64,000 nt of DNA from Sipunculus nudus (Eukaryota; Annelida; Sipuncula; Golfingiida; Sipunculidae): the NCBI GenBank assembly GCA_026874595.1, contig CM049307.1:55325870-55389869 (forward strand), given 5' to 3'. Positions 29,116 to 62,904 of the stretch are shown here, piece after piece. The position numbers and the translations under genes were made by a program. Below the pieces are notes generated by a model, which was given only the letters and a program-made list of their open reading frames with translations, was not told where the DNA came from and did no database searches. Positions within the stretch are counted from its first letter, which is position 1, and each line of letters opens with the position of its first letter.

Positions 29116-29691
29116 CTACAGTACATAAAATATTATTATGGCACCACAACGTTCTAAAAACATCTCTACCCTCTGACCCTTTACACTCACTAGAAAATGT
29201 TCTTGGCGAATTCTATTAATGACAATATTCTGAAACATAGTAATGGGGTTAAATGGACGAGATAAAATCGCTTTATTCCGATTACTCCATAGCACATTTT
29301 TACCAGTTATTAATAAAAAATCAAGTAACTGTAAGGACGTTTCAGACAAATCTCTCCATTTGTGGCCGAACCCATAACAAATTGTGTACATATTTACCTT
29401 GACGTTTTTGCCCGCGATTCCTTGAAATAAATAATTTATATCCATCCAAAATTTAAAGGCCGTTGGACAGTCTGAAAAAAATTGCAAATTACTTTCTGTT
29501 TCATTACAAACATGACATGAATTGGTAGCAGTGATTTTGCATTTAAATAAAAAATCATTTGTTGGCAACACAAGATGTAGAAATCTCCAGTTAACATCAA
29601 GCTGGTATTTATCATTTAAACCTCTATAACAGTTTTTAAAAACATGTTTCACGTCTAGTACATTTTTAAAGATACACCTCCATCTTACCAT
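29116..29691 (-). pseudogene. C-terminal zinc-knuckle segment of the LINE
   Basis: 191 codons in a third frame relative to the RT. It contains CHVCNETESNLQFFSDC followed by a Trp-rich region, as in the C-terminus of L1/Tx1 elements. The LINE's 3' end is near here; no clear poly-A tail is seen beyond it. Confidence 0.7.
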
Positions 29692-29749
29692 ACATACAGG
29701 TTCACTATTTCCAATTACAATATTATATATAGACTTCGTGGAAAACTTC

Positions 29750-37290: not shown

Positions 37291-37537
37291 ATAAACATGT
37301 CCTTATAGATAAATTCAGCTGAGCGTTGACACCCATGGGTCCCTACTTTTCTACTGTTAACAAATTTTACCTCTTTTTTAGAGTGCCAAATTACATCAGT
37401 GGTATCTGTTTCTCAACTGTGATTTCATCTAGTGTCCGGAAACCTGGCGTGTTTATTGGTCATGACTATTTCATCCGTAACTGAAGACTGAAGTCTTCTT
37501 GTTAATTCTTTTGAACGTGATTTATGTTTTCCAGAAA

Positions 37538-39897
37538 ATGCTGGCCTCCTTCAAATTTGGAAATTTGGGGCTGTTTGCCGAAGACCAAAGCCTGGACTTC
37601 AAGCCTGCAAAGGATGCAAAAGGAAATTTTGGAATTTTGATAGGGGCAAATGCAACCGGCAAGAGCAGTTGTATTGACTTCATAGGGCTCTGTATGTCAA
37701 GTAACGTCATAAACAGCAAATCCAGAATTGATCTAGAGAAACTTGGATGGGCACTCGCCTGTTTCAAAGTTGACAGAGATACATTGTATACGTGTGAAGG
37801 CCGTAACACCATTGAAGCAGCATTTGGGAATCTAGGAGTAGATAACAATGTACTAAGTCTGTGGACAGGTGTTATCTTCGACGACAGATTCAATCGTACA
37901 GTACGATTTATTCAGCTGGATAAACATGTTGGCCCTGTGTGTCTAACAGAGGTGGTGACTTCACTGACTGGCAAAGAACCAAGAACCATTTATCAAAGCT
38001 ATGAAAAACCCATTGTGGTTAATGGAGAAATACCAATGCCATATCCAGATGACCTATTGGACAGTGACGAGGCACATGACCAAAGCACGGGGGATATATA
38101 CTCATCGTTACTAGATGTGATAAGTGTGATCACCTGTAGGTTTGATCACATGGGTGTATGGGTCACAAACAACACAAGAAATACGCAGTCCTTTGTCCAA
38201 AATGAAACGTGCAAAACCAGTGAAGCATTAATGTTGGATCTCCTACAAAATGTGGATTTAAATAGAAAAGAACGAAGTATGAGAAACTTGCTGCAAGGCT
38301 AACAATTTCCAGTGACTGGAAATTTACTGTCAACAACTTTGGGCAGCTGAAGGTGTCCAATTTGTCTGAACGCCGTTCCGATTTGGGCAGAGTGCCAACA
38401 GGGGTGTATCAGGCCCATCTGATTGCCTTGTTGCTGACCACAGCAGATGATTTTTCAACTGTTATAATTGATGACCCTAGGGTGGACCCAGAAATGACTG
38501 AAAATCTCAGAGAGACAATTATTGACTTTGTAAAGAAGAATCATGTCTCGGTCATCATAGCTACTCATGCAGAGCAGTTTGTTTCACGGGCAACATGGCA
38601 ACATGTTTATCGTTTTGGCAAATGTAATTCACATACTTTATTTTGTCATGACTTGCCAGCAACTGAGTTAGATGAACTGAGGGCTTTCTGCGTAGATGAA
38701 GTCCGCAAGTGGTTCTGTTGCCGTTCTCTGATTTTAGTCGAAGGCATCACAGATAAGATTGTCCTTGAAGCTTTGCTATGCATTCTGAGAGAAATGGATA
38801 AATACCAAAAACTAGCAGGTGCTAAGGTTGTTCAGTGTAAAGGAAATGGGAATTTGGGAAAGGTAAATGAATTTTTGAAAGAATTTAGAATTCCTACGCT
38901 CAGTGTGTATGATGCTGATGCACTTGGGAAAAAGGCAAGTGAGAAAATGTGGGTGATGGAAAACACTCGTGCATTCATTAGATTATGTGAAAAGGATGGA
39001 ATGCCAGAAGTAGTCCAGGTCGACATTGGGAAGGGCGTTGGACAAGCCATTCGAATAATGTTAAACAAATCCTATGTGAGACAAGAAAGACATCCTGAGA
39101 TATTTTGTTTCGAAGCAAATACAATCAAGCATTTTGAGAAAAAATCAATCAAGGTAAACCAATGTTATATTACATTTGGACGAAATTAAATGAGTGTCCT
39201 GAAAGTAAACATTTGTGTGAGGCTATTCAATTTGTTTTGACGCGAGGTGGCCTCCTCCAGAAAGAATTAGCTGACAAGTTACCCATGTACGACTCAGACC
39301 AGATTGCTAAGGAAGTTGCCCAAATGGTCAAAGCGGTAACTGACACAGACCGTTATAATTACAACATGTCTGAAATCAGATATCTGCTTGTTGTAGAACA
39401 TTTGTTGTCTGCTGTATGGACAATCAGAAGCAATGACTCGGATGAACAAAATGGCGTCCGTGACAGTAAAACATCCGGTGTACCTGATGGATGTTCCAAC
39501 AGTAAAGGACAGAAGGATCAGAAAGAACGCCCTTTTTACTGGGGATGTGGAACCATTGAAGATGTAATAAATATTACACTCAGAAGAAAATATCATTATT
39601 CGGACCCTCCCAGACCGTGGCTGATTCAGTCCTTAGAGACTGAAGGGACCTACAAGAGACAGAATTGTATCTGGTTCTGTCAAAAAAGCACTTTAGGGAA
39701 AATAGATGCTCTCAGCCATGCAGACTTGACTGATCTGTGTTACATGTTGATAGGTGATCAGGAAAACCAATATTTTCAGAAATTTTTGGAATACCTCTTG
39801 GCAAATTACCAAGGTAATGATGCTCGAGGACGGGGATGAGGCTTATGAAAGTGACAAGGAACATGAAGCAGGTTATGAAAGTGACGACTGCGAATGA
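37538..39897 (+). pseudogene. OLD-family ATPase/TOPRIM paralogue, frameshifted
   Basis: The start ATG at 37538 directly follows a splice acceptor (TTTATGTTTTCCAG|AAAATG), as in the intact gene. Segment 1 (to about 38275) has FGILIGANATGKSS, the Walker A. A 1-nt frame change then leads to KYEKLAARLTISSDW. Segment 2 (to about 39165) has a weak signature (RVPTGVYQ), Walker B STVIIDDPRVDP with Asp in place of the usual Glu, VSVIIATHAEQF, and TOPRIM motifs SLILVEGITD and LSVYDADA. A second frame change near 39160 leads to MLYYIWTKLNE. Segment 3 holds FYWGCGTIEDVINITLR and CIWFCQKS. A possible third shift near 39815 opens an acidic tail (GDEAYESDKEHEAGYESDD) ending at 39897. Most likely a young pseudogene, since motifs are preserved; sequencing error is the alternative. 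AATAAA is at about 40500. Confidence 0.75.
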
Positions 39898-43378: not shown

Positions 43379-44249
43379 GTCTGCTTTTAACCTGAACAAA
43401 CCCAAGCTGTCCATATTTATAAATGTTAAACCACTTTATTTAAACTTTAAGTTATAAACAGCACTTTTTTCATTTTTGAAAATTTTATTTACTTAAACAG
43501 AACGTATGAGCCCATCCTCATTCATAAAATAATTATTGCTTACTATGTTTGATTACACCACTACCCGAGGCAAAAGATATTATACAATGTGGATTGCATA
43601 ATATAAATTACTCAATAAAGCATAAACTAGGCAGCAAAGGCATCAAATCTATGTTTTAGCGAGTTTAAAACGCCAGTACTCAAATTGCAGTAAAATATGA
43701 AAAGTTATATAAAGTGTATTTTTACTGCTCCGAGTTACTAGGATGCATATATCATTTATGATTAAAAAAAAACTACTGATTTATTCTGACCTTACACGTC
43801 AGGTGCCTGTGCATGCCACCATCCTGTCCACCTGGTTTTTTATATTTAGAAAATGCGTAATTAAATATTTTGGAAATAATATCGTACCTCGTTTCCTGTA
43901 AGCAATTTTAAAGCGTTTTATAAGAAATTAGTCTTTTCTGTAGCGACATATTACAACCAACATATGAAAGGTACATGGCAGGGAACAGTGACGACGTCAT
44001 AATAGACGTTAAGCAAAAAAGAGGAACCCAAATTTACGGGAGCAATGACCAAGGGCTGCCGCCCCTGTTTACAGTTAGACTTGAATTCTTCTCGTGCATG
44101 CGCTCCATTGTTATATCATTACTTCACATCGATATCCAGAGAGGATAAACAAAGATCACTTGTTAGGGACGCCATGAACCACGGATAAATATGAGACATG
44201 TCAACCAGGCCGTAAAGTGAATAATACCTATATCACAAGTAGGTATGGT
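39898..44249. other. No gene; AT-rich and repeat fragments
   Basis: Contains the C-run repeat seen also at 21340 (here 41775-41806), a GCGGGT-word region at 43085-43270 and (AT)n at 43342-43376. Frames are short and AT-biased. Confidence 0.5.
43085..43270 (+). repeat. GCGGGT/GGGGCGGG word-repeat tract
   Basis: G-rich strand with at least eight GCGGG or CGGGT words over 185 bp, several in runs that could form G-quadruplexes, in otherwise AT-rich DNA. It is non-coding. Confidence 0.6.
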
Positions 44250-44352
44250 ACTAAAATTATACGCTCCCGAGGCAGCGGAAATCTTGCGCTTCTAAAGAAG
44301 CTACAGATTTTCGCGATGCCTGCTTTGACCGTTTATGATGCACTTAAACACC
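44250..44352 (+). pseudogene. Relic of a third OLD-like gene (TOPRIM segment)
   Basis: One frame reads TKIIRSRGSGNLALLKKLQ then IFAMPALTVYDALKH. This lines up with the pseudogene's AKVVQCKGNGNLGKVNEFL and FRIPTLSVYDADALGK, that is, the Gly loop and the DxD strand of the TOPRIM domain. The second Asp is lost (YDAL). I find no homology on either side. Confidence 0.5.
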
Positions 44353-46877
44353 AGGTGGTGCACATGGGCCTGTCTGCTGGAAAAAAAACTGCTGATGTGA
44401 CAAGCAGCCAACCAAATGCAAGTCAACAAACACTCGACAGGCATCAGGCTCCGCCCAGAAACCACGTGCGGGGCAATTCTCTCTGAGATTGTGACCTGTT
44501 CAAACGGTCGCCGGGGCGATGAGCTGTCACTTAAAACGAAATTAACAACATTGGCTCCGTGTATTCCTCGCTTGGCTGGTAAACCGTGTTGTCTTCCGCA
44601 CAGGGTCTCATCTGATTGGACCAAAATACAGTGCTCCCCTCTGGTGTAGAGATTTAGGATATAAGGTCATAACAAACAGCGCTTACGATTTAGGTAGTTG
44701 GTCTATGGGTAACGCGCTGTGTAAAGAGCGTACTAAAATTACGCATTTTCCTCTTTCAGCAAGTGGTGCAAAGTTTGTGTGGCAAGTTTGTCTTACAGGG
44801 AGATAATCGCGAAAAGTTAGATTGACAGGGGTGGTGGAACGGACTATAGGAACCTACATTTTTTCATCGTATTTAATCAGTTTACATACTAAATTACAGT
44901 ACTACCCTTATGAATACACTTCTATGCACACTTTCTAACGATCTCGCGCAGCCCTCAACAGGGGGCGCTGTCACACACACACACACAAAGCTCCAAACTT
45001 CAAGAAACACAGCAGCGGACTAAGGTGGGGTCGGGAAGGCGGGCGGCTCATATTGCTCGTGAAATAACTTTCTCGTTCGGCGTGAATTCCTTGGTACAGT
45101 ACCATCACAGAGCTGTATTCGGTGTAGTTTCTTTCAATTGCGATAACAAGAGGTGGAATTGACAGGGCATTTATGTGTTCAGTTTCGGAAAAAAATATGT
45201 CACTCAGCAAATAAAGTCTGAACCAAAGTACAATTTTGGATGATCATAAATCGTGTGAACACGAAAAACGAAGTTACCAAATTGCATGTAAATCCTGCAG
45301 TAAAATTATATTTTTCTAGTTACGGAGCACTCCATAATGAACATAACTGTTTGAAGCCAGAGAGATGTTTTGGTTTACCTTAGCAAAGAGGAGAATGTTC
45401 TTGAATGTGTGGCAAAAATGTCCTTTCAATGAATTCATTGATATAACTTAAAGTCTATTTTTGCACAAGCTGTCCAGTTTTGGAAAATTGTTTAGAGGGG
45501 CGGCAAATTCTGCGACCGCCCCAGACGGCACAAACGCTATACACCGCTTAGAAACACTACAACAAATCATAGCACATAAATATATATAGGGTGACCTATT
45601 TTTATTTACATAGAAAATTTACCAGAATATGTAGGTACACGGAGTAAGAACATCCCGGTCTAACGGGATTTGTACACTGCGATGCATCAATTTGTTTGCT
45701 GTAGATTGTGCAAAACCGTGCGTGCCAGTGGGTTATCCTGGATTAATACAGTGAAACCAAGGCGGTTACATATTGGTTAGACAAATATGAAACGTCAATG
45801 TGGAAACTACTTTTAAGCTGTAATCAACATGTACATAAAAAGACACTTGATCAAAAGGTGAAAAAAGTCATTACATTAATCATACACATAAAAAGTAATC
45901 ATCACGTATGGCAATAAATTAACTAAGAAGTACCAAAGCGCCATTTTGAAAAATATATTTTGTTTCAGTTTATTATCTTTTGGCTCTATTAACCCTGAAG
46001 AAGAGTAAACCTCAAATGAAAGCAAAAGTTTTAATATTTCCTGGCCTGAGAAGGATGAATATGATCATTACAATTATTATCGAAGATATTTAAAACTCTC
46101 AGAGACTTACTCAGCATACATGAGGCCTCCGTAGCTTAAACTGACAACCTAATATAAACGTAGCGCTCATGGCCAAAGAAGTCACTAAAATTCAAATATT
46201 ATGTATTTTATTTTAATCGTAAAAAATATGAACAGCAGATTTTAAAGTTCCATAGTAGCTACAGTTTGAGTATTTAACTCAAAGGTTTAAAACTTCAATT
46301 ATTACGAAGAACGTATAATGTTCTCTCAAGAGTATATTGGGTGGTCATTTTTTAAATGCAGCCCACAAAAGGAAAATAATTCTGAACCTAAATATATCTA
46401 TGCAAGTTTATATCAAAACATGCACTGTCACATGATTTGAAAATCCAGCTAATTTCAATCACATTGCATCTTCCAATACCATATGGATTAACTTTCCTAA
46501 TTGAACTGGTAGAATAATTCACAACAAACCTGACTTATTCTGATGATCTACATGATATTACATAACATACCATTAAGGTACCTGTTCAATTATTACAAAT
46601 ACATGTACATCATCAAGAAAGACCGTTTTCCAATGGAGACTTACGTGTTCAAACATTGTTTCAATATTCATTTACAATTATTTAAATTTAAGGTACAAGT
46701 CAGCACGAAATCTTACAGATTTTCATGTCTATTCTTGTGACATTTACAAGATTACACCAGCCACAACAGTTCAAAAGTTTGCAATTGAAAGTTATATATC
46801 ATTGTTTTAAATTTTTTTCCCTACAATATCTTCAATCCATATGAAATTAACCTAATTAGTCCCATACAAATTTCCCT
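44353..46877. other. 3' flank of the intact OLD-like gene; no gene seen
   Basis: Includes a short (CA)n at 44972-44989 and ordinary AT-rich sequence. Two frames of about 80-110 codons near 44300-44650 have no recognisable features. No canonical polyadenylation signal stands out after the gene's stop. Confidence 0.4.
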
Positions 46878-49565
46878 TCAATAACGCTCAACATTTTTCA
46901 ACAGAAAATGTTCAAAGTCTTTCATATATGGATTTATATCTGGATGCTTTAATATCAGACCTGCGAGTTTGTTCACCTCCTGGAAACTTAGTTTCTCAAT
47001 AATCCCTGGGGATTTCTTTTGACAGTACCAGAGATACTCATGTTTTGTTTTTACTGGCGAACCATTTTGACCTTTCCCTGCTTCAACAACATACTTTCGA
47101 CATGTCCATGGTTCTAGCTTAGTATCTGATAGAAGTAAATTTCTTAATGTAACATTGACAAAATCTTCAATACATCCACAGCCCCAATAAAACTTATCTT
47201 CTGCATGGAGTTTAATCTCAGACTGGTTGGTTTTACCATTAGGCTTAAGGAATTTATCATCAAACCCAAGATGAAGGGATATACCTTCAGCCAGGGTTTT
47301 GCCATCGACATCAGGAAATGTACCTTCATCCTCACAGAATGTATCTGTCTGCGGAATATTACCCCCAGGTTGAGGAGGTTTACCTTTAGGCTGTGTGGTA
47401 TTGCCGTCTGGTACAGATAATCTGGCTTCAGTTTCAGAAGCTTTACTTCCAGCCACAGGGCATGGGACTTCTTCCTGTGTGGTTTTACCTTGACCCTGGA
47501 GAAATTTATCCATGGTCCGGGTTTCATCTTCATTTTCAAAAGTTTTGGTTACAGCTTCCATCATGTATTTCTCTTCGCCCTCAAGAGGAGTATCTTCATT
47601 CTTGGAGGAATCCCAAACTGGACGAAAGAGACTCTCTAACACCACAAGATGTCTGATATCATCAAAAGAAATAGTTTCATGTTTCGTTTCTTTTTCTCCT
47701 ATGACGAATTTAAGATCACCTCTATCATCTTCTTCCCTAGACAAGGGAAGATGTTTGGATTGTTGTAAGGCAAATGTAAGAGCTTCACAAAATGCCTCTC
47801 TTTTCTTATATTTACATCTCTTTGTTTTTTCTAATAAATAATAAATCATAAGTTGTCCATCTTTAAGTGATAACCGCAAATCATAGAGCTTTTGTGCATC
47901 GCACAGGAAGCTGCTAATCTCATTTACATTAGCTCCCTCCACTTCAGTTCCCTCTTCTTCATAATATGTTGTATTCAAAAGTTTGCGTATGTTCTCTGCA
48001 ATTTTATATCCTAGTTCTTTATCCACTACTGGGCGAAAAAGTTTTCCATCATCCAAAATATTCTGAGTCACCCAAAATCCTAGTGTTTTTCTCTCTTTAT
48101 TGGCATCGGCGTCATACACACAGCAGACTTTGACACCAATGGTTTTGAAAATAGAATAGAGCTTTGGTATTTTGGTGCTACTACCAGCTCCAACAATCTT
48201 GGCGTTTGCAAGTCTTAGATATTGGGGATCTGTACCTTTCATATTGCTGAACTTCTTTACGATGGCTCCAATGAGGATAGCATCAGTCACGCCCTCCACT
48301 AAAATCAGCCAGCTGCTGAAAAGCCATCCTCTTATTTCCTCTATGTGATATCCTTTCAGCTCAAATATTTTTCTAGGCAAATATCTACAACATAAAGTAC
48401 CTTTTGATGCACTTCTATTGAAACGAAACACATTTTTCAGTGTTTCCTGTGAGACAAACTGCTCAGCATGTGTGCTTATTACTATGGTCACATTTTTTCG
48501 GTGAACAAAGTCAACAAATTCCTCCCGAATTCTCGTAATCATGTCAGGATGCATTCCCAAGCTGGGCTCATCAATAACAAGTGTGGTATAATTGTCTATC
48601 AAAGTCAGAAGAAGTGCTATGAGACAGGATCCTAATATACCAGATGGTAATTTGAGTGTTTCATCTGGAGAATTAGGTGATCTCTTATTGCACACTTTCA
48701 ATTCATCACCTTCTACCTTGAAGGTAAAGTCTTTAGTGGCTGCTAATTTGGCAAAGAGATAGTCGAAGTCTTTTTGTTTCTGCAGTTTATCAACTTTTTT
48801 CACCATTTCAGTAATCATCTTGGCCCTCTCTCGAGTGCAGTGATAATTTTTTTGGCCCGCTCCTTCATCTAATTCAAGACACCTCGTGCTGGTTACAGCT
48901 CCAATACCACGTTGGTCAAATACAAAAGTCACCAAACCATTAATACCAAATAAAGAACTGTATACCTCTTCAAATACTTCTTCAGTCAGTGTTTCCCCAT
49001 CAGATTGAATGTTTGTCATGAATTCACCATCTTTGACAATGGGCCCATCATATCTGTTGAAAGTGACACTTGATCCTCCGCTTGATCTTTCGTTTGTGGC
49101 ACGAGTCCGCTCTGTCACTAAAGTTCTTCCAGTTATGGCCTTCTGCCATTTATCACCATCACCATCATCCACATCTAGCTGAATGACTTTAATTTTATAA
49201 CCATTTTTGAACATCACGCCTGTCCACATATAGAGTTTATCGGTGTTTATATTGTTCAGATCATCAAAAACATTTTTCATAAGTGTGTATCCTACATATT
49301 TATACAAGGTCTTTTTGTCAATTTGAAAATGTGCCAGAGCCCAGGCTGGATTCTTAGTTTCATAAATTTTTGAGTTACTGTGGTTGATTTCCGCCGACAT
49401 ACAGCGCCTGAGAAACTCCAGGCAGCTACTCTTCCCTGTGTTATTTGGTCCCACTAAAATGCCTAGACGCCCTTTTCCTTTTCCATTTTTCTCCACTTCA
49501 TGGAAATGCAGATTTTGTTGATCTTGAAAGTCTCCAAGATTTCTAAACCTGAAGGATGTCAGCAT
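46878..49565 (-). CDS. OLD-family-like ATPase/TOPRIM protein with long C-terminal extension, intact
   Basis: A single uninterrupted 895-codon frame starting ATGCTGACATCC, 3 nt after a splice acceptor (TTTTTTATTTCAG|AAA). Residues 1-400 form an ABC/SMC-type ATPase: Walker A GPNNTGKSS (39-47), signature-like LPSGILG (306-312), Walker B LVIDEP with SLGMHP (329-340) and H-loop VISTHAEQF (His366). Residues 420-490 carry TOPRIM landmarks ILVEGVTD (Glu424), the Gly loop VGAGSSTK, and VYDADAN (Asp485, Asp487). This order defines OLD-family nucleases, which are usually near 600 residues. The extra 300 residues comprise a helical part, a low-complexity linker (about 655-790) rich in Gly-Lys/Pro/Asp/Glu, and a block FYWGCGCIEDFVNVTLR (792-808) ... 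LWYCQKK (845-851) that is conserved in the pseudogene. No signal peptide or membrane segment; predicted nuclear or cytosolic. All catalytic residues are present. Function unknown; nucleic-acid cleavage is inferred. Confidence 0.85.
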   Translation of the reverse strand: MLTSFRFRNLGDFQDQQNLHFHEVEKNGKGKGRLGILVGPNNTGKSSCLEFLRRCMSAEINHSNSKIYETKNPAWALAHFQIDKKTLYKYVGYTLMKNVFDDLNNINTDKLYMWTGVMFKNGYKIKVIQLDVDDGDGDKWQKAITGRTLVTERTRATNERSSGGSSVTFNRYDGPIVKDGEFMTNIQSDGETLTEEVFEEVYSSLFGINGLVTFVFDQRGIGAVTSTRCLELDEGAGQKNYHCTRERAKMITEMVKKVDKLQKQKDFDYLFAKLAATKDFTFKVEGDELKVCNKRSPNSPDETLKLPSGILGSCLIALLLTLIDNYTTLVIDEPSLGMHPDMITRIREEFVDFVHRKNVTIVISTHAEQFVSQETLKNVFRFNRSASKGTLCCRYLPRKIFELKGYHIEEIRGWLFSSWLILVEGVTDAILIGAIVKKFSNMKGTDPQYLRLANAKIVGAGSSTKIPKLYSIFKTIGVKVCCVYDADANKERKTLGFWVTQNILDDGKLFRPVVDKELGYKIAENIRKLLNTTYYEEEGTEVEGANVNEISSFLCDAQKLYDLRLSLKDGQLMIYYLLEKTKRCKYKKREAFCEALTFALQQSKHLPLSREEDDRGDLKFVIGEKETKHETISFDDIRHLVVLESLFRPVWDSSKNEDTPLEGEEKYMMEAVTKTFENEDETRTMDKFLQGQGKTTQEEVPCPVAGSKASETEARLSVPDGNTTQPKGKPPQPGGNIPQTDTFCEDEGTFPDVDGKTLAEGISLHLGFDDKFLKPNGKTNQSEIKLHAEDKFYWGCGCIEDFVNVTLRNLLLSDTKLEPWTCRKYVVEAGKGQNGSPVKTKHEYLWYCQKKSPGIIEKLSFQEVNKLAGLILKHPDINPYMKDFEHFLLKNVERY

Positions 49566-50080
49566 TTTCTGAAATAAAAAAGAGAAAAAGTCAGTACATT
49601 TTTATAATTAATTAAATTACGCATAACTGTTGCAAATTAGCAAGAAAACGAACAAATTACTCATGGGCCATGGCTATCAGTGAATACAATATCATGTGAC
49701 ACTATCATCATTTATGCATTAAGACCAAAAAAAGCAAAATCTGTAAAACAAACTCTAAAATTAATCATTATGTAATCTTATGTCACAGTCAGTGCTCTGA
49801 CTGAAAACTAAAAAGGAGAATACTCAATGGTCCATCCACAATTGGGCATCAGCGACCTATAAACTTAAGCTTGAAAATTAAAAGCAGAAGGGTTTTCAAA
49901 ATATGATTATTATATGGATTGTATTTTATCAATTTCAAATTATATATGTAAACTTTTTAGTATTGTAACTATTGTTTTCTTCAAAGTTGTTTTGACATTA
50001 GCTACCTAGGAATGAGACAAATGGCCCATGACGCTAATCTGAATTTTACATTAGATAAAGAGCATTGCAGATAAATATGG
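49566..50080. other. Upstream region and putative 5'-UTR intron of the intact OLD-like gene
   Basis: The acceptor polypyrimidine tract is CTCTTTTTTATTTCAG (49569-49584 on the minus strand). The upstream noncoding exon and promoter are not identifiable by eye. Confidence 0.5.
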
Positions 50081-52340
50081 GTCACAGTGAACTATTTGGG
50101 GATTTGCAAGTAAAGCTTGAACTAAAACAAGTGACCCATGGGTTATGACGCTCAGCCGACTTACATGTTGGCAATATGTTCTTGCACAGACAACTTATTA
50201 AGATAATGTAGGTGGCATCATTCATTCTTAACTTCATCAAGACCCATAGGCACACAAAATTTAATTACAAGCCATCCAGGCTTTCCTGTGTAATCTGGTA
50301 ATTTGTATATACTTGTTACAATATTTCTGGAGTACTCAAACACGCCCCTTAACTCGAAGCATATAGGTCACAGTGACCTAATTTCAATTTTCTGAAAACA
50401 TTTGAGGAACTCTCAGGATGCAGAGGTTCATGATTTTAGCCTTTACGGATTCGATTTGTGCCTTGTTAACAGACCTAGTGTTCTAAAATATACAGGTAAA
50501 TATCGTTAAGATTAAGATAATGCAGGTGGCGCCACCATATATGCCCAAAAGCTTAGGTTCATTAAGACCCAAAAACATACCAAATTTAATGAAAAACCAT
50601 CCAGCCGTTCCTGAGAAATCTGGCAATTTGTGTGTAATATACATTATTTCTGGGGTGCACAAACACCCCCGTGACTTTGAGAATATAGGTCACAGTGACC
50701 TGATTTAAAGTGTCTGAGGAGAACTTTTAAGGAACTCTCAGGATGCAGAGATTCATGATTCTAGCCTTTTCGGGTATGATTTGTGCCTTGTTAACAGGTA
50801 CAGTGTTCTCAAAAATACAGGTAAAAATTTGTAAAAATTAAGAATATGCAGGTGACGGTACCATTCATGCCCAGTAGCTAAGGTTTATTAAGACCCATAA
50901 GCACACAAATTTGATTACAGTCCATCAAGCCGTTCCCGAAGAGTCTGGCAATTAATGTGTATTTTTTAATCACTGGGAGGGGGGGAGAGTAAACAGGCTC
51001 CGTAACTCTAAGAATATTGGTCAAATTGACCTTATTTCAGGTTTCTGAGGAGAAATTTGGAGGACCTCTCAGGATGCAGAAGTTGATTCTAGGCTTTATG
51101 GTTACGATTCTGAGTCAACTGTGCTGAAAATGCGTAAAAATTCGAACAAATAAAGCTGGCGCCAGATTGCAGGAACTGATGAAACACTCCATGATTAATA
51201 TGCATGCAATGAATCATGACGATCAATGTATTATTATTCAAATAATGGAGCTTTTCTATCAAATATCTAAATATCCTGGGGGTACTTATAATCCCCATAG
51301 CCCTGAGACTATGGGCAACAGAGAACTAATTTCAGGTTTCCAAGTAGATTTTTCAGGGACCTCCCTGGAACCAAGATTCTAGGTCCAACGGTTATCATTT
51401 TTGTCCTGTTAACAGACCTGTTACAGGCCTGATGGGGACCTGCGCAATGGGATATACATCAGGTATAATGCTTCCATGCCATGTCTGCCATGTAAACATG
51501 ATTATAGGTTGCACCAATTGAGGCCAATACTGCAAATCACTCCTGAGAAAAGGGCATTAATTTATTCAACATAAACGGAAAGGTAAATGGCGCCACCTGT
51601 CTGGTTTACGAGAAAACTTTCCAAGATGGATGAATATGCCAAATTTCAGACCAATACCTTGACCAGCTCCTAAATATATTAGAAATTTTCACCCAAAGTA
51701 CATGTACTAATAGACGCCATGGGAAAACGATTGTAGATGACGCCACCAGTCTTGAGCACAAGAGGGAATAGCCCAAGATCTATGGATATGCACAACTTCA
51801 GGCCAAAACTGCAAATCACTCTTCAGAAAAGGGCATGAATTTATTGTATGAAAACCAGAAGCTAATTGGCACAACCTATCTGGTTTATGTGACATTTTTC
51901 CAAGATTGATGAACATGCCAAATTTCACAACAATACCTTGACCCACTCCTAATATATATGCAATTTTCACCCAAAGTACATGTACAGATTGACGCCACAG
52001 GAAAAATATTGCAGATGGCGCCACCAGTCTTAAACCCAACATGGAGGCGTCAAAGATCTATCGATATGCACAATTTCATGCCAATACTGCGAATCACTCC
52101 TGAGAAAAGGGCATTAATATTTTCTATGAAAACGGAGAGGTAAGTAGCTCCACCTGTCTGCTTTACGAGAAAACATTCCAAGATGGATGAACATGCCAGC
52201 AGGGTAGTGTCACAGAACAGCAGGCGACTGCAGACAGCTAGTGTCACAGAACAGCGCGACATTTCCACAGTACGGTAGTGGAAACTGCAATGTTCCTTAT
52301 ATGCCACAGGGCATGTGAGTATTACAGAACTATTTTGCAT
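50080..52340. repeat. Degenerate tandem repeats with GGCGCC cores
   Basis: From 50080 to about 51400 a unit of about 335 bp recurs. The landmark ACTCTCAGGATGCAGA is near 50410 and 50745, with a variant near 51068; each unit also holds 'ataggtcacagtgacc'. From about 51440 to 52200 a different, roughly 300-bp unit recurs (CACCCAAAGTACATGTAC near 51690 and 51968). Cores GGTGGCGCCACC (50525), TGGCGCCA (51160), TGGCGCCACC (51589, 52016) echo the 2514 and 8268 elements. It lies in the upstream region of the intact OLD-like gene. Small frames here are repeat translations. Confidence 0.65.
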
Positions 52341-53750
52341 CTCAAGACAGGAGAACTGTGTGGAAGGACAGTATAAGACAGTGGGAAGTTAGTGTCTAAG
52401 GACAAAAGAGTAGTGTCACAGGAGAGTAGAGGACACCTTTCTGTACGCTATATGTAACAGTGAATCAGGACATTAGGACAACACAGCCTGCCTTTATGGA
52501 TTTATTTGATACTACATATAACATTTCCAAAGAAATTTCTTTTGAAGTTACACATTAAGGAGTATGGATAACAGTTTTCATATGAAATACAAATCATATG
52601 AGTACTTGCTGGTTAATCAGTCTTCGCTCCATTAGTTTAATTTTAATGGTTTAAATCAGTAAAAATGGTTAAAATGATCCTTTTAGCAGTATTGTAACAT
52701 AATATTCTAAATTGGCCAAAAGTTCTACACAACGGAAATCAAATATTAAGAATGACTGACAGATGGCCTTTAATATGGATTCTTCTAATAGCAATAGGAA
52801 ATTGAGCTTTTAGGTTATCATGTTCTGTTATCATCAAATTGTGCCTGCTCTTCGGTTTTTTATAAAGGTTTTAATTTTACTGTTAACGCATCTATTAACC
52901 CTCTCTTTCTGATCTTCTGATAACAAGTAATCTATTAAACACGGCAGGTAATTATCGACACGAAATAAAGAGGCATTCTACTAATTGTTCCATCTGACCT
53001 GTTACTTAGTTCTAAATGTAAGACTCTGAATGTCTCTCAAGTATGTGTGAAAAACCATTTGAAAGATGTTGCGTTATACAATTATTTTACATTAGGTTAT
53101 CGATAACAGGAGAAGGAGAAGGAACCATACATTTTGAAGAGGTCGGAAAACATTTTAATGTGGAACTGATACTTATTTGTGCAGGTGTAAGTGGAAATTG
53201 TGCAGCTGTAATTCTGGATTTGCGCACGTCTAAGATTTAAAGTCTCCTCCTTGTTGCAGACTGTAAAACTAGGCTTAAGCACATGAGTATATAATGAAGG
53301 ATTGGACAGATCACACACACGAAGGCTATTCACCATACAGTTGGCTGAGACTTGGCTCTGGTGTGACTATGCAAATATTCTGTATATTTTGTTATTTGTA
53401 TACTACGTATAATATTCATACAATATAAAAAGAGATATACACAAACTCTAGATCAACACCGAATGGATCCATCTTAAAATTTTTTACGGCCTCTGTCTCT
53501 GGCTACCCTTGGTACACTAGCCTTTAAATGCTTTACAGGCGTGCAATGCTGACGGGAAATGCTTGATAACAAGTGAAGTTCCAAAATTTCTTTATAAATA
53601 AACTCTAGGTATAGTGTCATATAGGTTGTACGGAGATGCAATACATCCAAATTTTCACATAATTTGCTCCCCGGCTAAACATTTGGGGCGTGCTCAGACC
53701 TATTTAAGCGAAGAATGTGTATATGTGCAGATGTACACTGAACAGTTCGC
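52341..53750. other. No gene recognised
   Basis: AT-rich, with no repeated structure or exon-like frame that I can support. Confidence 0.4.
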
Positions 53751-53876
53751 ATTCCTGAGATCACATGATATCAGACACCGAGGTGACATTCCTGAGATCA
53801 CATGATATCAGACACCGAGGTGACGTTCCTGAGATCACATGATATCAGACACCGAGGTGACAATCCTGAGATCAAA
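53751..53876. repeat. 37-bp minisatellite, 3.4 copies
   Basis: The unit starts ATTCCTGAGATCACATGATA and repeats at 53751, 53788, 53825 and 53862 (partial), with single-base differences. Each unit contains TCACATGATATCA. Confidence 0.95.
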
Positions 53877-55729
53877 TTACGATTGGGATCTGGTCTCGAC
53901 AAGACCAAAATCAAGCATGTCAGGTGTCCTGATTTCTTTACAAGTGTAAAACAATAACTTATTTAATATGAGCCAAGAATGATTTGACAGAATATTTTAG
54001 CAATTTGTTGTATAAAGGTTCATTATTTATAATATTATTTAATATGTCAAACACACAAAACACACAAAAGAGAGCATTCTAAAATTACTGGGATATTTAA
54101 TGGCAGGATGTATGTTATTATACCCGATCTCGTTTACCTCCAAATGACTGTTATATATACTATTCCGTTAATTTTTATGTGTTGCATTTATGGTATATAT
54201 TCAAGTCATATTTCTTCAAAAGTTGTTCACACTTCATGTAAAGGAAGTGTTGTCTTCAGGAATCTTAACACATTTTCTGATTATTAGGGATACTTGTCTG
54301 TAACAATCCACAAGTTGAAGAAATATAGGCTCAAAATATGTAATGTCATACACACCTTGTGGCCAGTCTCACAAACACAAAAGAAATCCTTTGATTCACA
54401 AGGATCAAAGAGAAACAAACCACCAGCAGTGTGTGTACTCAATCAGTACTCAATCAGTTTGGTCAGTTAATGAGTAGCAAAAAAAAGAATACTCTGAAGG
54501 TTAAATTATTTATGCTTGCACAGGGCCATAATTATGAGATGTGTAACTAAACGAATACCAGTTACAATATGTTTCTTAAAAATACAATGTAATCGTAAAT
54601 AAAATCAATATTATATCTCAATAATAAACATATATCTAAATTATATGTAAAAAAATTAATGTCTCATAAAGAGAATAGATTTAAGAATTTAATTTTTCTT
54701 ACCACAATGCAGATAGGAAGTACTAAATATATTGACCAAATATACTGTTAATATTTAAAGAATTATTTTAAAAATAAACATAAACTAACAAACATAACTG
54801 AAACTTTATGAAATTCAAATCACATGGCTATACCATAAGTATATATAATATATATTTATATATATATAATATACAATATATATATTAACATGAAATATAC
54901 TTCTTATCATATTACACAGAAAACATTTGAATCTAGTCCAGATCCCAATCACAGTCTGGACTAGTCCAGTTTTGAGTGAGTCTCGACCAGAATTAAATTG
55001 AGGAGGATTTTGATTTGGCCTAGACAAGATTACAATCGCAATCTTGACTAGTATAGGTTAGAATTGGCCTAGACCAGTGCCCAAAATGTGATCTGGAAAA
55101 GGGCCAGTTCTTAAATGGACTGGATTTAGATCTGGCGTACGACATATATATATATATATCCTAGTTTTTAGTTACAATGTAGCTTAGCAGAGCGTGTTTA
55201 ATACTGATATATATATATATATTAATCTACTATATAAGTGTGTGTAAACAGTGTATATATATATATATATAACTCATCCTTACTTCCAACAATCAAAACA
55301 ATAATTCTTAACTTGAAGACCTTATAGAATGAGAATATATTGTGGATAAGAACTAGCCTGATTTCAAATTTGTCCCCGACAACAGGGAAACGTGTACCCA
55401 GAGATGGATACCAACCATACTGTCCACTGACATGATCAGTATGGGATTCAGATACCCCATGGGTGATTACCAGATAATGTTTTTTCAGTTGGACTCATTC
55501 ATATCAGTATAATAACATACTCAGGTTCTTTACAGCTTTCACCCAAGGGTATAAAAGAACTGTTTTTACATGACGTTAATTAATGTTAATAAACGGTGTA
55601 AACGACATAAAAAATAATTATTTGTCAGAAGGCCCAAAATTTCATTTATGTTAGCACAACTACAGAGAGTCTGAGAAATGTCATTAATCATGGGTCAGTA
55701 TCAGCTAATGTAACAATCATATATTCTTC
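53877..55729. other. Non-coding; TA tracts and CTAGTCCAG words
   Basis: TA-rich tracts occur at 54838-54890, 55144-55160, 55206-55222 and 55252-55270. Between 54930 and 55140 the words 'ctagtccag', 'gatctgg' and 'ctagacc' recur in both orientations, resembling a degenerate word-repeat element. No gene seen. Confidence 0.5.
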
Positions 55730-57060
55730 CCATACATGCCATTTTGCCAGCTTGACTTGAGCTATCACAAAACCTTCAGCATGCTTGACTTAAATAAATG
55801 GGCAGCAGTTGAATAGTGTATGATGGAGCTCCTAACCTTTCAGCTTCACTATCAATGATAAACAAAAATTATAAAAAAAAATAGCTTACCATTATTAAAC
55901 TAAAGGAACCGATTTGTAATTTTACAAATCACATGAAGATAGTGCACAGACTGTGACAAAATGTAAATTACTATAGTCCATTTCACCACCTGCTGTCCAC
56001 CTGTTTTTGTAGATGATTTACTTAAAAGTTAATATTTTTCAATATTTTCCAAGAAAACAACATATGGAAGTGACAACCTAATATGGCAGTTAAGAATTTT
56101 ACAATAAATCCCCCATTTATGTTTCACAACATTTTAGTCTCTTTATCATGATCTGGCAGACGTGGTGTGTCCCTCCATAAGTAGCCATCTTTGTTTTAGC
56201 TGTTTATATTTTTTAGAGTGTTTACATGAGATCATCCAATCAGCAGCTGTCAGCTGAGGCTGTTTTTGCATGTGACTAATGACCTTGACCACCATAAGTG
56301 GGTCTCATATGTTGTAAAATGTAGACTGATTTCTCATATTTTCAGAAAATTCTGTTACTCAAATAAGGTATAAGGTAGGAATTTAGTTACCTTGTTGAAA
56401 ATTAGGTTCTGTAATCCTCTCCTTTACACTATAATTGTTTCCCTTGAAATGTACCTATTAAAAATTTTCATAGCAAAAAACAGGTGGACATGAGGGGATG
56501 AAACGGACTATAGAGATAAAATACAGATAAATATTCAGTGGAATTGACTGAGAGATTCTTAATATAGCAGATAGTTACTACTGGAAATATACAAATTAAA
56601 AAAATAATATCTCATAGTACTATCCCATTTTTAATCAAACATCACAAGACCAATGGGTACCATTAGCGGGTTTGACGTATGCCAAGATCTATTTTAATAG
56701 TTCATGTGGAATTGTTTTAGCTTTGCTCTCTTTAAAAGATGAATTTATATTCATGTTACAAACTGACTACACTATATGAAACTGAAATATATGAAACTTG
56801 ACCACTGGCTGATCTACCTTTTCTTGTTGACGAAGGACACATCCATTGATTATATTTTTTTAGTTCCCAGTCAAATAGAATACCCCATGGTTGTAGTTCT
56901 TTTAAATCCCAGAAGAAGATGATTCCTGGACAACCCTGATTCAAAAGAACTGTATTCATAAAGTTGATAGCTTACAAGATCAATGTCATAATGTATGTAA
57001 TTTATAAATAAATTTTGTTGAGTGCAAGTTTAACTATGTATCTAATACCAAAAATAGAAA
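55730..57060 (+). repeat. Diverged direct duplication, copy 1
   Basis: Shares ordered words with 62905-63760: AGCATGCTTGACT, 'gggcagcag.t.aat.gtg', GACTGTGACAAAATGTAAAT, 'aataatatctc.tag', and 'atgtatgtaattt' through TTTAACTATGTATCTAAT. I estimate roughly three quarters identity by eye, with indels. The frames inside are not conserved between copies, so it looks non-coding. Confidence 0.6.
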
Positions 57061-58240
57061 CTAAAAAGAACATGACCCTATGTAATCATCTGCTCAATCC
57101 GTACAGTTCTTGGCAAATAATTTCCCCATCATGAATGGGTTTAATACAATAAATAATTTATAACTTAGTGATTCAGAGTTATATACGGTATGTTGAGATT
57201 CTGGCAAAGATTGAAGGCAATTGATAAAGCTGTCCAATGATATATTTTGCATATTAAAGTTCCCATTTTGCATATTTTACTTATATACCTAGTACCTATA
57301 AGTGGATACTTATAGCCTCCGAAGTAATTTTTGTGATCAGTTTATAAACAAATAAAGTCAATTTTAAATTGAATCCAGTGTGTGGATATGGGATATACCA
57401 TTGTTTTAGATTGAAATAAAGTAAACTCATGCTTGTGCTTACCATCTAGTTTACATGAAAGATATGAAAACTTTCCATTTATGTCTACAAACTTTAAACA
57501 AGGTACCTAACTTCTAAATTCACTAGCTGATCTTTAATTTGGCCACTGCGTGGACTGACCACCTGAAATGGCCTCTAAGTGAAAAATAGCTAGTTGGAAA
57601 ATAAAAAAGACTTGTAATGTGTTCTGTTGAATGATAAAACACAAATGCAGTGCTGGTCATTGAATATGACTTGCAAAGCTTCTTGTTTTCCTTCAGGACC
57701 AGCTAGATCTCTTCAAAGGTGACTGGTGTAGGTCTTTACAACTTTGTTTAATCTGTTCTCAAAATGTGACAAAGGAATCACATGTCACATGTCAATCAGC
57801 GTGTCATAGCCTATATTATCTTTAAGTTGCCGATCGGTTTTTGTGAATAAAGGTTGTTTGAAGTGCTTCAACAGCAACCAGGAAGAACCGATTTTCTGGT
57901 AAATATGACAGAAGCTGACACCACGTGGTGTTGTTTTGAAAACTGTAAAAATTGCTACATTTCAGCTGCGCATAGTAAGCGTCTGTAAATAACTTAATAT
58001 TGGTGCAGTATCTAAGATTAACGTATATATATTTACTGTGAAGCATCAACGCTTCGTGATATTGGCCCAAGAGAAAACTAGACATTTCTTGGCATTTCTA
58101 GAATCCCCAGACATAGTAGGGCCCCCCCCCTACAAGAACAAACCCCCATTTTCAGCAACATATACTGACACTTGGCATATTTATTGTTTCTTCCATCTAA
58201 CAATCCACAATCTTGTTGAAGATGTTGGTCCTGTGACCTT
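57061..58240. other. No gene recognised
   Basis: AT-rich single-copy-looking sequence up to the start of the 288-bp array. Confidence 0.4.
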
Positions 58241-60320
58241 GATCTTTTAAAGATGTGTCCTGTGACCTTGACCTTTGACCTCATAACCCCAAAATCAATT
58301 TGGGTCTTGCTATTCCAATGGGACATATGCAAGTCAAGTTTGAAATCTATACATCAATAAAGCAGGAATTATCATCCAGAAACTTATTTTTGGACATATG
58401 ACTCCTGTGACCTTCACCTTTGACCTGGTGAACTCAGATTTGATAGGGGTCTTCCACTCTTGGCAGGTGAACTATATGTGCAAGATGAAAGATCTGAGAT
58501 GAATTGTTTGGCTGAAAATGCATCTACAATCTTTTTAAAGATGTTTCCTGTGACCTTGACCTTTGACCTCATGACCCCAAAATCAATTCGGGTCTTGCTT
58601 TTCTAATGGGTTAATAACAAAGCCAAGTTTGAAATCCATACATCAATAAAAGAAGAAATTATCATCCAGAAACTAATTTTTGGACAGATGGCTCCTGTGA
58701 CCTTCACCTTTGACCTTGTGACCTCAAAATTGATAGGGTTTTTCCTCTCTTGGCAGGTGAACTATATGTGCAAGATGAAAGATCTGAGATGAAATGTTTG
58801 GCTGAAAATGCATCCACATCTTTTTAAAGATGTGTCCTGTGACCTTGACCTTTGACCTCATGACCCAAAATCAATTTGGGTCTTGCTTTTCCAATGGGAC
58901 ATATATAAGTCAAGTTTGAAATCCATACATCAATAAAAGCAGGAATTATCATCCAGAAACTAATTTTTGGACATATAGCTCCTGTGACCTTCACCTTTGA
59001 CCTTGTGACCTCAAAATTGATAGGGGTCTTCCACTCTTGGCAGGTTAACTATATGTGCAAGATGAAAGATCTGAGATGAATTGTTTGGCTGAAAATGCAT
59101 CCACAATCTTTTTAAAGATGTTTCCTGTGACCTTGACCTTTGACCTCATGACCCCAAAATCAATTCGGGTCTTGCTTTTCTAATGGGTTAATAACAAAGC
59201 CAAGTTTGAAATCCATACATCAATAAAAGAAGAAATTATCATCCAGAAACTAATTTTTTGACAGATGGCTCCTGTGACCTTCACCTTTGACCTTGTGACC
59301 TCAAAATTGATAGGGTTTTTCCTCTCTTGGCAGGTGAACTATATGTGCAAGATGAAAGATCTGAGATGAAATGTTTGGCTGAAAATGCATCCACATCTTT
59401 TTAAAGATGTGTCCTGTGACCTTGACCTTTGACCTCATGACCCAAAATCAATTTGGGTCTTGCTTTTCCAATGGGACATATATAAGGCAAGTTTGAAATC
59501 CATACATCAATAAAAGCAGGAATTATCATCCAGAAACTAATTTTTGGACATATAGCTCCTGTGACCTTCACCTTTGACCTTGTGACCTCAAAATTGATAG
59601 GAGTCTTCCACTCTTGGCAGGTTAACTATATGTGCAAGATGAAAGATCTGAGATGAATTGTTTGGCTGAAAATGCATCCACAATCTTTTAAAAGAGGTTT
59701 CCTGTGACCTTGACCTTTGACCTCATGACCCGAAATTCAATTCCGGTCTTGCTTTTCCAATGGGTCAAATACAAGTATAGTTTGAAATCCATACATCAAT
59801 AAAAGAAGGAATTATCATCCAGAAACTAATTTTTGGACAGATGGCTCCTGTGACCTTCACATTTGACCTTGTGACCTCAAAATTTATAGGGGTCTTCCTC
59901 TATTGGCAGATGACTTATATGTGCAAGATGAAAGGTCTGAGATGAAATGTTTGGCTGAAAATGCATCCACAATCTTTTTAAAGATGTGTCCTGTGATCTT
60001 GACCTTTGACCTCATGACCCCAAAATCAATTTGGGTCTTGCTTTTTCAATGGGACATATATAAGTCAAGTTTGAAATCATTACATCAATAAAAGCAGGAA
60101 TTATCATCCAGAAACTAATTTTTGGACAGATAGCTCCTGTGGCTTTGACCTTTGACCTTGTGACCCCAAAATTTATATGGATCATCCACTATTGGCAAGT
60201 GGGCTATATATTCAAGATGGAAGACCTGGGATGAAAGTTTGGCTTAAAATGCATCCACAGTATCTTTTAAAATGCCAGTCCAGTGACCTTGACCTTTGAC
60301 CTCATGACCCTAGAACCTAT
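58240..60320 (+). repeat. 288-bp satellite-like array with two-monomer higher-order period
   Basis: The marker TGTGACCTTGACCTTTGACC (or a near match) begins at 58261, 58549, 58838, 59126, 59415, 59703, 59992 and, diverged, 60292. Spacing is 288 or 289 bp, then 300 at the end. Monomers alternate: type A has GATGTGTCC and 'ccaatgggacata', type B has 'tttcc' and 'aatgggt.aa'. The best match of a monomer is therefore two units away (577 bp). Each monomer carries TGACCTTTGACCT, a perfect inverted DR1 nuclear-receptor half-site pair, and a second near-perfect one, TCACCTTTGACCT. Small frames here are not genes. Confidence 0.9.
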
Positions 60321-62904
60321 AGGGTTCTTACTTTAGTGGTGGGCCATACATAAGTCATGTTTGAAATCCATATGGCTATCAACACTGGAGATATCATAAG
60401 AGGTGTGTGATTTTCTCCATATATGGCAATATTCAAGGTCAAGGCCACTATCATAGGAAAGGTCATGACCCCAATTTAAATAAGCATCATCCCATAACCC
60501 ATACCTATGTATATGCATAATATAAAAGAAATCTGTCCATTAGTTTTTGACTTATAATGCTCACAGTACTGTAAGGTGGCAATTTTGGGGGTATTAAACG
60601 GCACGAAAACAAGTAAAGAAAAATAGGTGGCGCCTTTGTCTGGGGATACAATAAAGACGGGGTTAATGTAGCACCTATTACAGGACCGCGGAGACATAAA
60701 AGTGTAACATACGGCGGAAGGCGGAGTAATCCTATGACCCACGAGGAGGTGTGAATGAGGTCTTTTGTTTTGATTTAACCGAATTGATTTTGAAAAGCCG
60801 AAGCGTCGTGAATGATATCAGCCATGTTGACCTCATTCATGAGAAGCCACGTGGAGAAAGCATGGATTAAATGGATGCCATTAACAGGCCACGATTTAAT
60901 GTTATATATTATATGACTGTGCCTGATTTATGAGACAAAACACCAAGTTATGTTTTCTCACAGTATACCTTTTACGATCAGATATGACACAACCTTTAGT
61001 ATATTTATTACCACAAACAGACACTGACCTCTTAATGCATTACTCAATCACATGCAGGAATTAAGCAACCAGACTTGTCTAGATTTTTGCTGTACCTACA
61101 TGGGCTGCGATATTCGAGGACCGGGAGCAGGAACACTAGAGCATCTGTAGTTCTGTAATTGATACTCTGATCCGTTAACCTGTTAACAGGCGATATTGTT
61201 TAAATATTGACACTAATACACACAAAAATATTGAGCTATCTCGTCTGAAGTAAACCATACCTCTGTCTCTGGTTGTTGATGAAAGGGTAATGTTGACGGT
61301 AAATGACTCTTCAATCTTCTAATAGCATTGTATAAATTTATGTCGTAGTGCCAGCACTGGGCGGGAAGTTAAAGGCCGTGATTGCGCGGTACCGTCTGTC
61401 CTGTACGACTAACCTGCCTGTATAGCCCCCGAGCATAGAGAATGTTCTAGAGGTTTTCATCCACGACAGAGACTGGGCCCTGATGTGATTGGCTGGTGCA
61501 AAGTGTGACGTCACAGGTAAAATTTAGAAATGACTTAAATCTAACAGTATATATTTTTATTCTTACCTGAAAATATAAAGCTAGCAGTGTGAGAAATACT
61601 AAGCTTTTGATGAGATTAAGAATTTTTTTACACAGGGGATTTCCCTTTTTGTGACGTCACTGCCGAGTTGACAGGGATAGATGGGCAAATAGTATTTCAA
61701 CAAATCACACAACCACATTTTTGTTTGTGGAGAACTAAATAGAAAAATTGAATCGGGCTCACTTTATTAAAATCTATATTAATATTTTTTCATAGGCAAT
61801 CGTGTTATATGATAATATGATGAGATTTGGAATACGTTTGCTTGACCTGAACCAAACAGTGGATTCTCTTTCATCATTCACTACACTTCACCTGTTCGAA
61901 ACCAGTTCGGCTGAGTCAAAACAAACGTCCTCATTCACAATTCCTGGGGAGTCTTCCGTACTATGGTACAACCATATTAAGGCATTTAGTGAACTATCAA
62001 AGTGAAGAGGCCATGAAAGTCCAGTGCAATTATTTCGTATGGCATGCATGATATTATAATGATTAACGATATAACTGACATTTGATAGCAATATACTGCT
62101 TGAATACATGCTACACTTAACTTTAATGATTATAGAACGGATAACATTAATTTATTGTTTTTAAAGAAGGCACTGAATGTTTTGCAGTGCCAGGTGCAAA
62201 GTAGCAGCACGGTTTATCAGCTTATACATATATAATGCTATACGTTACATTTTATTTGCACTCTAAGTCTCTGGTTTAGACTACATAAGAAACTAAACAG
62301 TCACAGCTCAACCATCACCAGGACAAACCCCCTAACACTCCCTTTTTAATCAATCAAGTCCTACTTTTTTCTGTAATTAATATGTAAATAAATATTCATC
62401 TTTAATTCCAACAATCAGTACTAAAACCCTGGTTCATCAGATACCCAGGCTTGTTAGATTACCCTTTATATGTAGAAAATGTTGTAAATACAATGTCTCT
62501 GATTTGTACTGACATGAGATGCTATAATGTAATTGGAACAACATAAATACCATGTATGTTTTGACTATATTTCTTCCTAGGGAGAAAATGGTGGGACGAT
62601 AGCATTTCTTTCTTCATATTCGAAAATTTGCTTTTTCAAATCTTCCAGTTTGTCACCTTGTAGTAGGTATTTGTCATTAAATGCTCATTAAGTGGGGAAC
62701 TTTACTTGAGACTTTGCCGAAAGTGTCTGATGACTTTTACAATGGTAGTAACAGTTCGTAGATACAGAACTGTTCTTGCAGTTAAGGTGAGCCAGAGAAA
62801 GTGGGAAGTTCAATACAATAAATAAAACAATGATAAAAATTAGGATAAGGTATGTCAGTGAATGTACAACTGACAGAAACTGCCTAAAAGCCAGTGTGTG
62901 ATTT
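60321..62904. other. No gene recognised
   Basis: Starts with the decayed edge of the array, then a GGTGGCGCC word at 60625 and ordinary AT-rich sequence. No exon-like frame is supported. Confidence 0.4.

Follow-up and report, generated by a model that had tools for sequence, protein, structure and literature searches.

A gene of 895 codons in the genome of the sipunculid annelid Sipunculus nudus, referred to here as copy A, belongs to a branch of the OLD family that is real, resident in an animal genome and new as far as the literature was checked. OLD-type enzymes are ATP-driven and cut DNA; they have been described in bacteria and in bacterial viruses, mostly with a function in defence. Copy A lies within a stretch of 64,000 nucleotides which was analysed as a whole and is termed the window (C2:55325870-55389869); C2 is a contig of 98.5 Mb in an assembly of 1,426,538,692 bases in 153 contigs. 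On balance copy A is probably a working gene in a family of animal nucleases that are of OLD type and regulated by ATP, with a role in defence as the least certain part of this reading.

The reading frame of copy A starts at an ATG at 49565 and its stop codon ends at 46878, such that the coordinates and the 895 codons of the original prediction are exact and the strand is minus; the opposite, plus strand at 46878-49565 is full of stops. The encoded protein combines an ABC-type ATPase, with a head of the SMC/Rad50 type, and a TOPRIM nuclease domain of the OLD type. Indeed, the hidden Markov model searches that the original prediction proposed as a check return AAA_21 (2.9e-13), OLD-like_TOPRIM (3.7e-10) and AAA_15 (2.1e-9), all above their gathering scores, and profile searches do not assign copy A to some other ABC family devoid of TOPRIM. 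Among the PADLOC models the top match is Old (E 4.3e-25), followed by the AriA, AbiLi and GajA models. A profile-profile comparison (hhalign) with prokaryotic OLD proteins covers residues 285-490 over 199 columns (99.0%, E 3.8e-18), and a sequence profile search matches 6p74, the structure of the OLD protein from Thermus scotoductus. In a tblastn search of 50,697 phage records two were matched, both of them P2 at its Old gene (E 4e-7, residues 327-487). Against the family model of the retron Eco8 effector, a Class 3 OLD, copy A scores 24.4 bits, below the cut-off of 250, and a search of the window with Rfam gave nothing above gathering score.

The motifs of the ATPase and TOPRIM parts named in the original prediction, together with their residue numbers, were found to be correct by alignment and by a letter-by-letter check (Table 1). 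The P2 OLD positions that have been mutated, as reported by Schiltz and colleagues (PMC7049728), are K37, D299, H306, H332, E398, D453, D455, E402, D541, E543 and K550, and copy A is identical at eight of these 11, through K45, D332, H339, H366, E424, D485, D487 and E800. P2 OLD E402 is replaced by D428, and the same paper gives an Asp at this position in T. scotoductus OLD also (PMC7049728). The C-terminal motif, which matches the metal-B motif of OLD proteins, is an addition to what had been predicted. In a 20-row alignment of class 1 proteins the pattern W..G.IE is invariant, as is a Lys eight residues past the Glu; the pattern appears in copy A as W794, G797, I799 and E800. Since the hhalign alignment spans only the residues given above, the identification of this Glu as the metal-B residue depends on the short motif as aligned by MAFFT.

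Copy A has relatives elsewhere in the genome, which the original prediction did not include. With copy A, PF20469 and copy J as search queries, and with locus counts that are necessarily lower bounds, the family comprises 12 or more loci, distributed over three large contigs (C2, C5 and C14). Three copies (A, B and the broken C) lie at 55.31-55.38 Mb of C2 and four (G, H, J and K) at 80.86-80.99 Mb of the same contig, with three (D, E and F) on C5 and two (I and L) on C14. Seven copies are intact (A, B, D, F, G, I and J), one is open but degenerate in its TOPRIM domain (E) and four are broken, either in frame (C, H and K) or by several stops (L); the last of these, at C14:19.566 Mb, is known from search rows only and stands outside the counts made over 11 copies. 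The intact copies, of 695-895 amino acids, are mutually 21-42% identical, and all seven have E424, D428, D485, D487 and E800. The third metal-B ligand position (D541 in P2) reads C, T, N, E, N, N and D across the seven, and the PF20469 TOPRIM domain is above its cut-off in seven of the eight open copies.

The decayed paralogue which had been noticed beside copy A is indeed present as copy C, spread over three frames; its matched pieces are 30-34% identical, its Walker B Glu is replaced by Asp, and the D-loop His is absent. The same Asp is found in copy B (L032:3153-5459; the corresponding piece of copy C is at 38266-39189 of the window), which suggests that the substitution predates the split between B and C. 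Copy E (L034:4345-6066) is a frame of 574 codons in which the ATPase is intact, the metal positions of the TOPRIM domain have become K, Y, H and E, and the C-terminal motif is gone. The copy may be decaying, or may have turned into a protein that is an ATPase only.

Table 1. Features of copies A and C, with positions counted from the first nucleotide of the window
Feature	Position	Strand	Basis
Copy A, intact OLD-type ATPase-TOPRIM gene, 895 amino acids	46878..49565	-	One open frame including stop; Pfam, PADLOC, own-genome search
Pyrimidine tract and CAG, like a 3' splice acceptor, ending 3 nt before the copy A ATG	49569..49585	-	Sequence
Walker A GPNNTGKS, residues 39-46 (G39-S46), K45	49428..49451	-	Alignment, letter check
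Signature-type loop LKLPSGI, residues 304-310, invariant G309; not LSGGQ	48636..48656	-	Alignment
Walker B TLVIDEP, residues 328-334, D332 and E333	48564..48584	-	Alignment
D-loop GMHP, H339 aligned with P2 OLD H306	48546..48557	-	Alignment, letter check
H-loop STH, H366 aligned with P2 OLD H332	48468..48476	-	Alignment, letter check
OLD-like TOPRIM domain, PF20469, residues 414-486	48108..48326	-	Pfam
TOPRIM VEGVTD, E424 (metal A) and D428 (metal B position)	48282..48299	-	Alignment, letter check
TOPRIM DxD, D485 and D487 (metal A)	48105..48113	-	Alignment, letter check
Linker, about residues 655-785, longer than in other copies	47211..47603	-	Alignment; predicted local distance difference test (pLDDT) score <50 at 678-787
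C-terminal motif FYWGCGCIE, residues 792-800; E800 aligned with P2 OLD metal-B E543	47166..47192	-	Alignments
Copy C, broken paralogue, inverted relative to copy A	37538..39839	+	Open stretches 37538-38302, 38266-39189 and 39138-39839, three frames
Acceptor-like site before the copy C ATG	37518..37534	+	Sequence

The family has clearly been under purifying selection over much of its history. Between copies A and B the nonsynonymous (dN) and synonymous (dS) divergences are 0.56 and 2.85, a ratio of 0.20; copy B against the two larger pieces of copy C gives dN/dS values of 0.36 and 0.29, and copy J against the pieces of copy K gives 0.22-0.32. The value of dS is saturated between D and F, between G and I and between B and the third piece of C. 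A codon model over the seven intact copies (558 gap-free codons) gives an omega of 0.103 (0.119 earlier in the run); with dS saturated, all these figures are rough. In the recent pairs which have a broken or degenerate member the constraint is partly weaker (0.56 for D/E; 0.29 and 0.69 for the G/H pieces).

With regard to the origin of the family, one scan of 84,980 species genomes gave at least 112 confirmed stretches, of which the best 80 were retained; these, among the matches listed, are 20-40% identical in their best segments and are distant relatives only. A profile of the animal proteins reached 89 bits at its top match in four chosen genomes. Further genomes were sampled in two phyla, with two candidates scored in each genome: in one phylum 162 of 395 genomes were matched, with the top eight rows at no more than 61 bits, and in the other 76 of 387, with the top eight rows at no more than 46 bits, these rows being confined in both phyla to positions 235-555 of the 727 in the profile. 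A close prokaryotic donor was found neither among the 112 or more stretches from the large scan, nor in the four chosen genomes, nor in the 395 and 387 further ones. Since only distant relatives were found, the acquisition would be ancient, or its donor would lie outside the sampled genomes.

A tree was built from 93 loci from the genome and viral scans, 52 of which went to extraction of open reading frames and 42 of which had frames of at least 520 amino acids; the 54 rows are these 42, eight animal copies and four phage and plasmid records. The eight animal rows form one clade with a support of 100/99 and a stem whose length is 3.26 changes per column, and the clade persists in a tree of 49 rows from which five long or gappy ones were omitted. 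In the best tree the clade stands beside L057 and L065 (support 94/81), a tentative placement among the prokaryotic groups. By the approximately unbiased (AU) test, a union with the P2 group is rejected (p-AU 0.026), and unions with all class 1-like rows (p-AU 0.383) and with the L047-L099 group (p-AU 0.125) are not, in a comparison that involves long branches and groups defined with the tree already in view.

In 10 of the 11 copies the ATG is preceded, at a distance of 3-8 nucleotides, by the end of a pyrimidine-rich [CT]AG; the remaining one, copy K, reads ACAG at that place and was not counted. The background frequency of such sites in this DNA is 226 of 6200 ATGs. The acceptor criterion was set post hoc, after the sites had first been seen, and the paralogues are not independent. 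That a non-coding, acceptor-like site is kept between proteins of 21-42% identity suggests that the genes of the family have a spliced 5' exon and that they multiplied by duplication at the DNA level. A search for the upstream exon found none that was convincing, with just 39 bp of similarity upstream of A and C.

Among the known systems, class 1 OLD proteins (P2 Old and the T. scotoductus OLD 6P74) share with copy A an N-terminal ABC ATPase with the Lys/Asp-Glu/His/His set, the Glu and DxD of the TOPRIM domain, and a C-terminal W..G.IE with its metal-B Glu. Class 1 proteins are encoded by a single gene without a helicase or reverse transcriptase partner; among the open frames within a few kb of copy A no such frame was seen, in a search by which spliced partners could be missed. 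The identity between P2 Old and copy A is 21-24%, varying with the alignment, and the intact animal copies are longer than the 586 residues of P2 Old or the 528 of the T. scotoductus OLD chain. Unlike class 1 proteins, the animal copies have an insert motif of their own (RGIG and neighbours) and form a deep, separate and multigene clade in a eukaryotic host. Class 2 OLD proteins, or GajA of the Gabija system, have the same order of ATPase and TOPRIM; several GajA models match, in all eight open copies below the Old score, most narrowly in copy J (40.3 bits for Old against 37.4), and no GajB-like helicase of the UvrD type is found among the open frames near copy A, where spliced genes would be missed. 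The archaeal class 5 protein Cran1, likened here by its description only, is likewise conserved in a cellular lineage, but an archaeal one (PMC12796447). In a structural comparison the ATPase part of copy A resembles the heads of SMC and Rad50 over residues 1-417, barely touching the TOPRIM domain. SMC and Rad50 heads, however, are split by a long coiled coil and have no TOPRIM, whereas copy A has a TOPRIM in the same chain and its model contains no long coiled coil or long helix pair, that part being at low confidence. No OLD entry is among the 50 rows of the VIA-align structural listing, which excludes nothing.

Several observations weigh against reading copy A and its relatives as working OLD-type nucleases with a role in defence. 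P2 D541 corresponds to C798 in copy A (a Cys found likewise in certain class 1-like proteins from bacteria, L047, L051, L052, L076 and L099), and the basic residue closest to P2 K550 is R808, shifted by one column; at position 808 itself P2 has a Lys (K551), as do seven of the eight other prokaryotic rows of the same alignment. Copies I and J have no basic residue there, the TOPRIM domain of copy J scores under the Pfam cut-off, copy B has the Asp already mentioned for its Walker B Glu, and in copy G the His of the D-loop is replaced by Gln. The structure model of copy A has a mean pLDDT of 53.7 over the whole chain. Its dimerisation region and most of its C-terminus failed to align with prokaryotic OLD by profile and were modelled poorly; the insert in the ATPase is present but unaligned to OLD by profile, with pLDDT <50 over much of it. 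A single-sequence search of the PDB with copy A returned ABC transporters and other ABC-type proteins only, and no OLD. Moreover, Cran1, for which a role in cell-cycle progression is described and no antiviral role was found by its authors (PMC12796447), is an OLD protein outside defence and so speaks against assuming defence by default.

If copy A works as the P2, Thermus (T. scotoductus) and Burkholderia (B. pseudomallei) OLD proteins are described to do (PMC7049728, PMC6755086), a dimer would form through the ATPase insert, and the binding and hydrolysis of ATP would gate the entry of DNA to the TOPRIM site. DNA would then be cut by two metals, one held by E424, D485 and D487 and the other by D428 and the C-terminal E800. 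In the least certain step, the substrate would be foreign or aberrant DNA, mobile DNA included, and the outcome a cell-autonomous defence of the genome. This guess is made because of the OLD precedent and the pattern of duplication, divergence and loss among the copies, and by such analogy genome defence by the family, which the original prediction put forward alongside nucleic-acid sensing, is plausible.

The alternatives are of unequal standing. Bacterial contamination or an artefact of assembly, which the presence of bacterial-looking contigs in the assembly might suggest, has a negligible probability and was rejected: copy A lies on a contig of chromosome size, on which pieces of myosin head, read as separate exons, occur at 44.8, 52.5 and 59.4 Mb, and C2 is for that reason taken to be an animal-type chromosome; the GC content of the gene is 39% against 37% for the window; 11 related loci lie on three large contigs; and there is no close prokaryote among those examined. 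The gene is thus resident, as originally supposed. It is also very improbable that the genes are the cargo or the remains of a mobile or viral element which spread in the genome, even though the copies are scattered over three large contigs as single-frame coding regions, with repeats and retroelements nearby. Across nine loci of 10 kb no companion recurs among frames of at least 140 amino acids, there being one reverse transcriptase-like frame (judged by eye) at one locus; the flanks align end to end in the G/H pair only, and other shared flank pieces are of about 680 bp or less at varying distances, except for 867 bp downstream of D/E. Four scans of viral contigs gave no close relative (two were empty and two gave matches at 26-34% identity), and the acceptor-like sites of 10 of the 11 copies argue against retrocopying. 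With no recurring companion frame, no common borders and no close viral relative, this explanation was rejected also.

A recruitment of the family to genome maintenance (DNA repair, replication or the cell cycle), as an SMC/Rad50-type machine with its own nuclease, is a serious rival, though less likely than not. It accords with the SMC- and Rad50-like ATPase heads and with the function described for Cran1 (PMC12796447); the strong divergence of the copies, their clusters, and the four broken and one nuclease-degenerate loci of 12 are, however, unlike a conserved single-copy gene. Copy E, which has stayed open for 574 codons despite four changed TOPRIM metal positions, could be taken to mean that the proteins have a regulatory function which depends on the ATPase, with a nuclease in the course of being lost. 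This is hardly probable, since five metal-site residues are retained in every intact copy, and copy E lacks the C-terminal motif too and looks decayed.

Beyond these main subjects, several features of the window and the assembly were recorded. Of the LINEs (long interspersed nuclear elements) and introns described in the original prediction, a LINE-type retroelement is present (29116-32897, minus; its endonuclease, reverse transcriptase and zf-RVT are spread over separate frames), and putative introns are suggested only by the acceptor-like site before the ATG. The interval 23761-26853 (minus) is occupied by an element that has both an integrase core (rve) and a frame for an Ulp1-type C48 protease. 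Around copy A, at 44000-52500, no further frame of more than 131 amino acids overlaps, in a search of open frames only, by which intron-split genes would be missed. The ratio of observed to expected CpG is 0.405 in copy A, against a window mean of 0.720; since a value as low is reached in 28 of 280 sliding windows, and since other copies are mixed, CpG depletion was dropped as a sign of germline methylation. A stretch at 53600-61700 is CpG-poor, with sliding windows at or below 0.405 and the window minimum of 0.12, and contains repeated sequence at about 58.2-60.2 kb; among the frames of the whole stretch no host gene was recognised by eye. Elsewhere on C2, several myosin head pieces at G000:C2:44837703-44856291 match the same part of the family model and are possibly alternative exons. 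A search with a mollusc haemocyanin family, run with no positive control, returned no match. COX1-family matches occur on nine small contigs (C60, C61, C62, C66, C72, C74, C75, C89 and C123 of G000); the two inspected, C60 and C123 (L044 and L045), look bacterial by their neighbouring frames, the operon on C123 resembling a cbb3-type oxidase as judged by eye; no OLD family matches are listed on bacterial-looking contigs.

The survey that founded the OLD classes described its 833 homologues as 'absent in eukaryotes' (PMC6755086), a recent OLD family tree, as its sampling is described, covers bacteria and archaea only (PMC12796447), and the string 'eukaryot' never occurs in the main text of a review (PMC10568477). 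A literature search, whose coverage does not extend to most subscription papers, turned up no account of OLD proteins as an animal family; automatic annotations in protein databases may exist. A bolder proposal, which is possible and still somewhat doubtful, is that this animal lineage possesses an OLD class of its own, acting as cell-autonomous, ATP-gated immune nucleases by which DNA from viruses, transposons or bacteria would be recognised; such an immune arm of a dozen loci would be parallel to, yet separate from, cGAS-STING and the other defence modules inherited from bacteria. A resident, selected and expanded animal family would lengthen the list of immune-type modules common to bacteria and animals, and whether animals turn an ATP-gated TOPRIM nuclease on foreign DNA would become a testable question.
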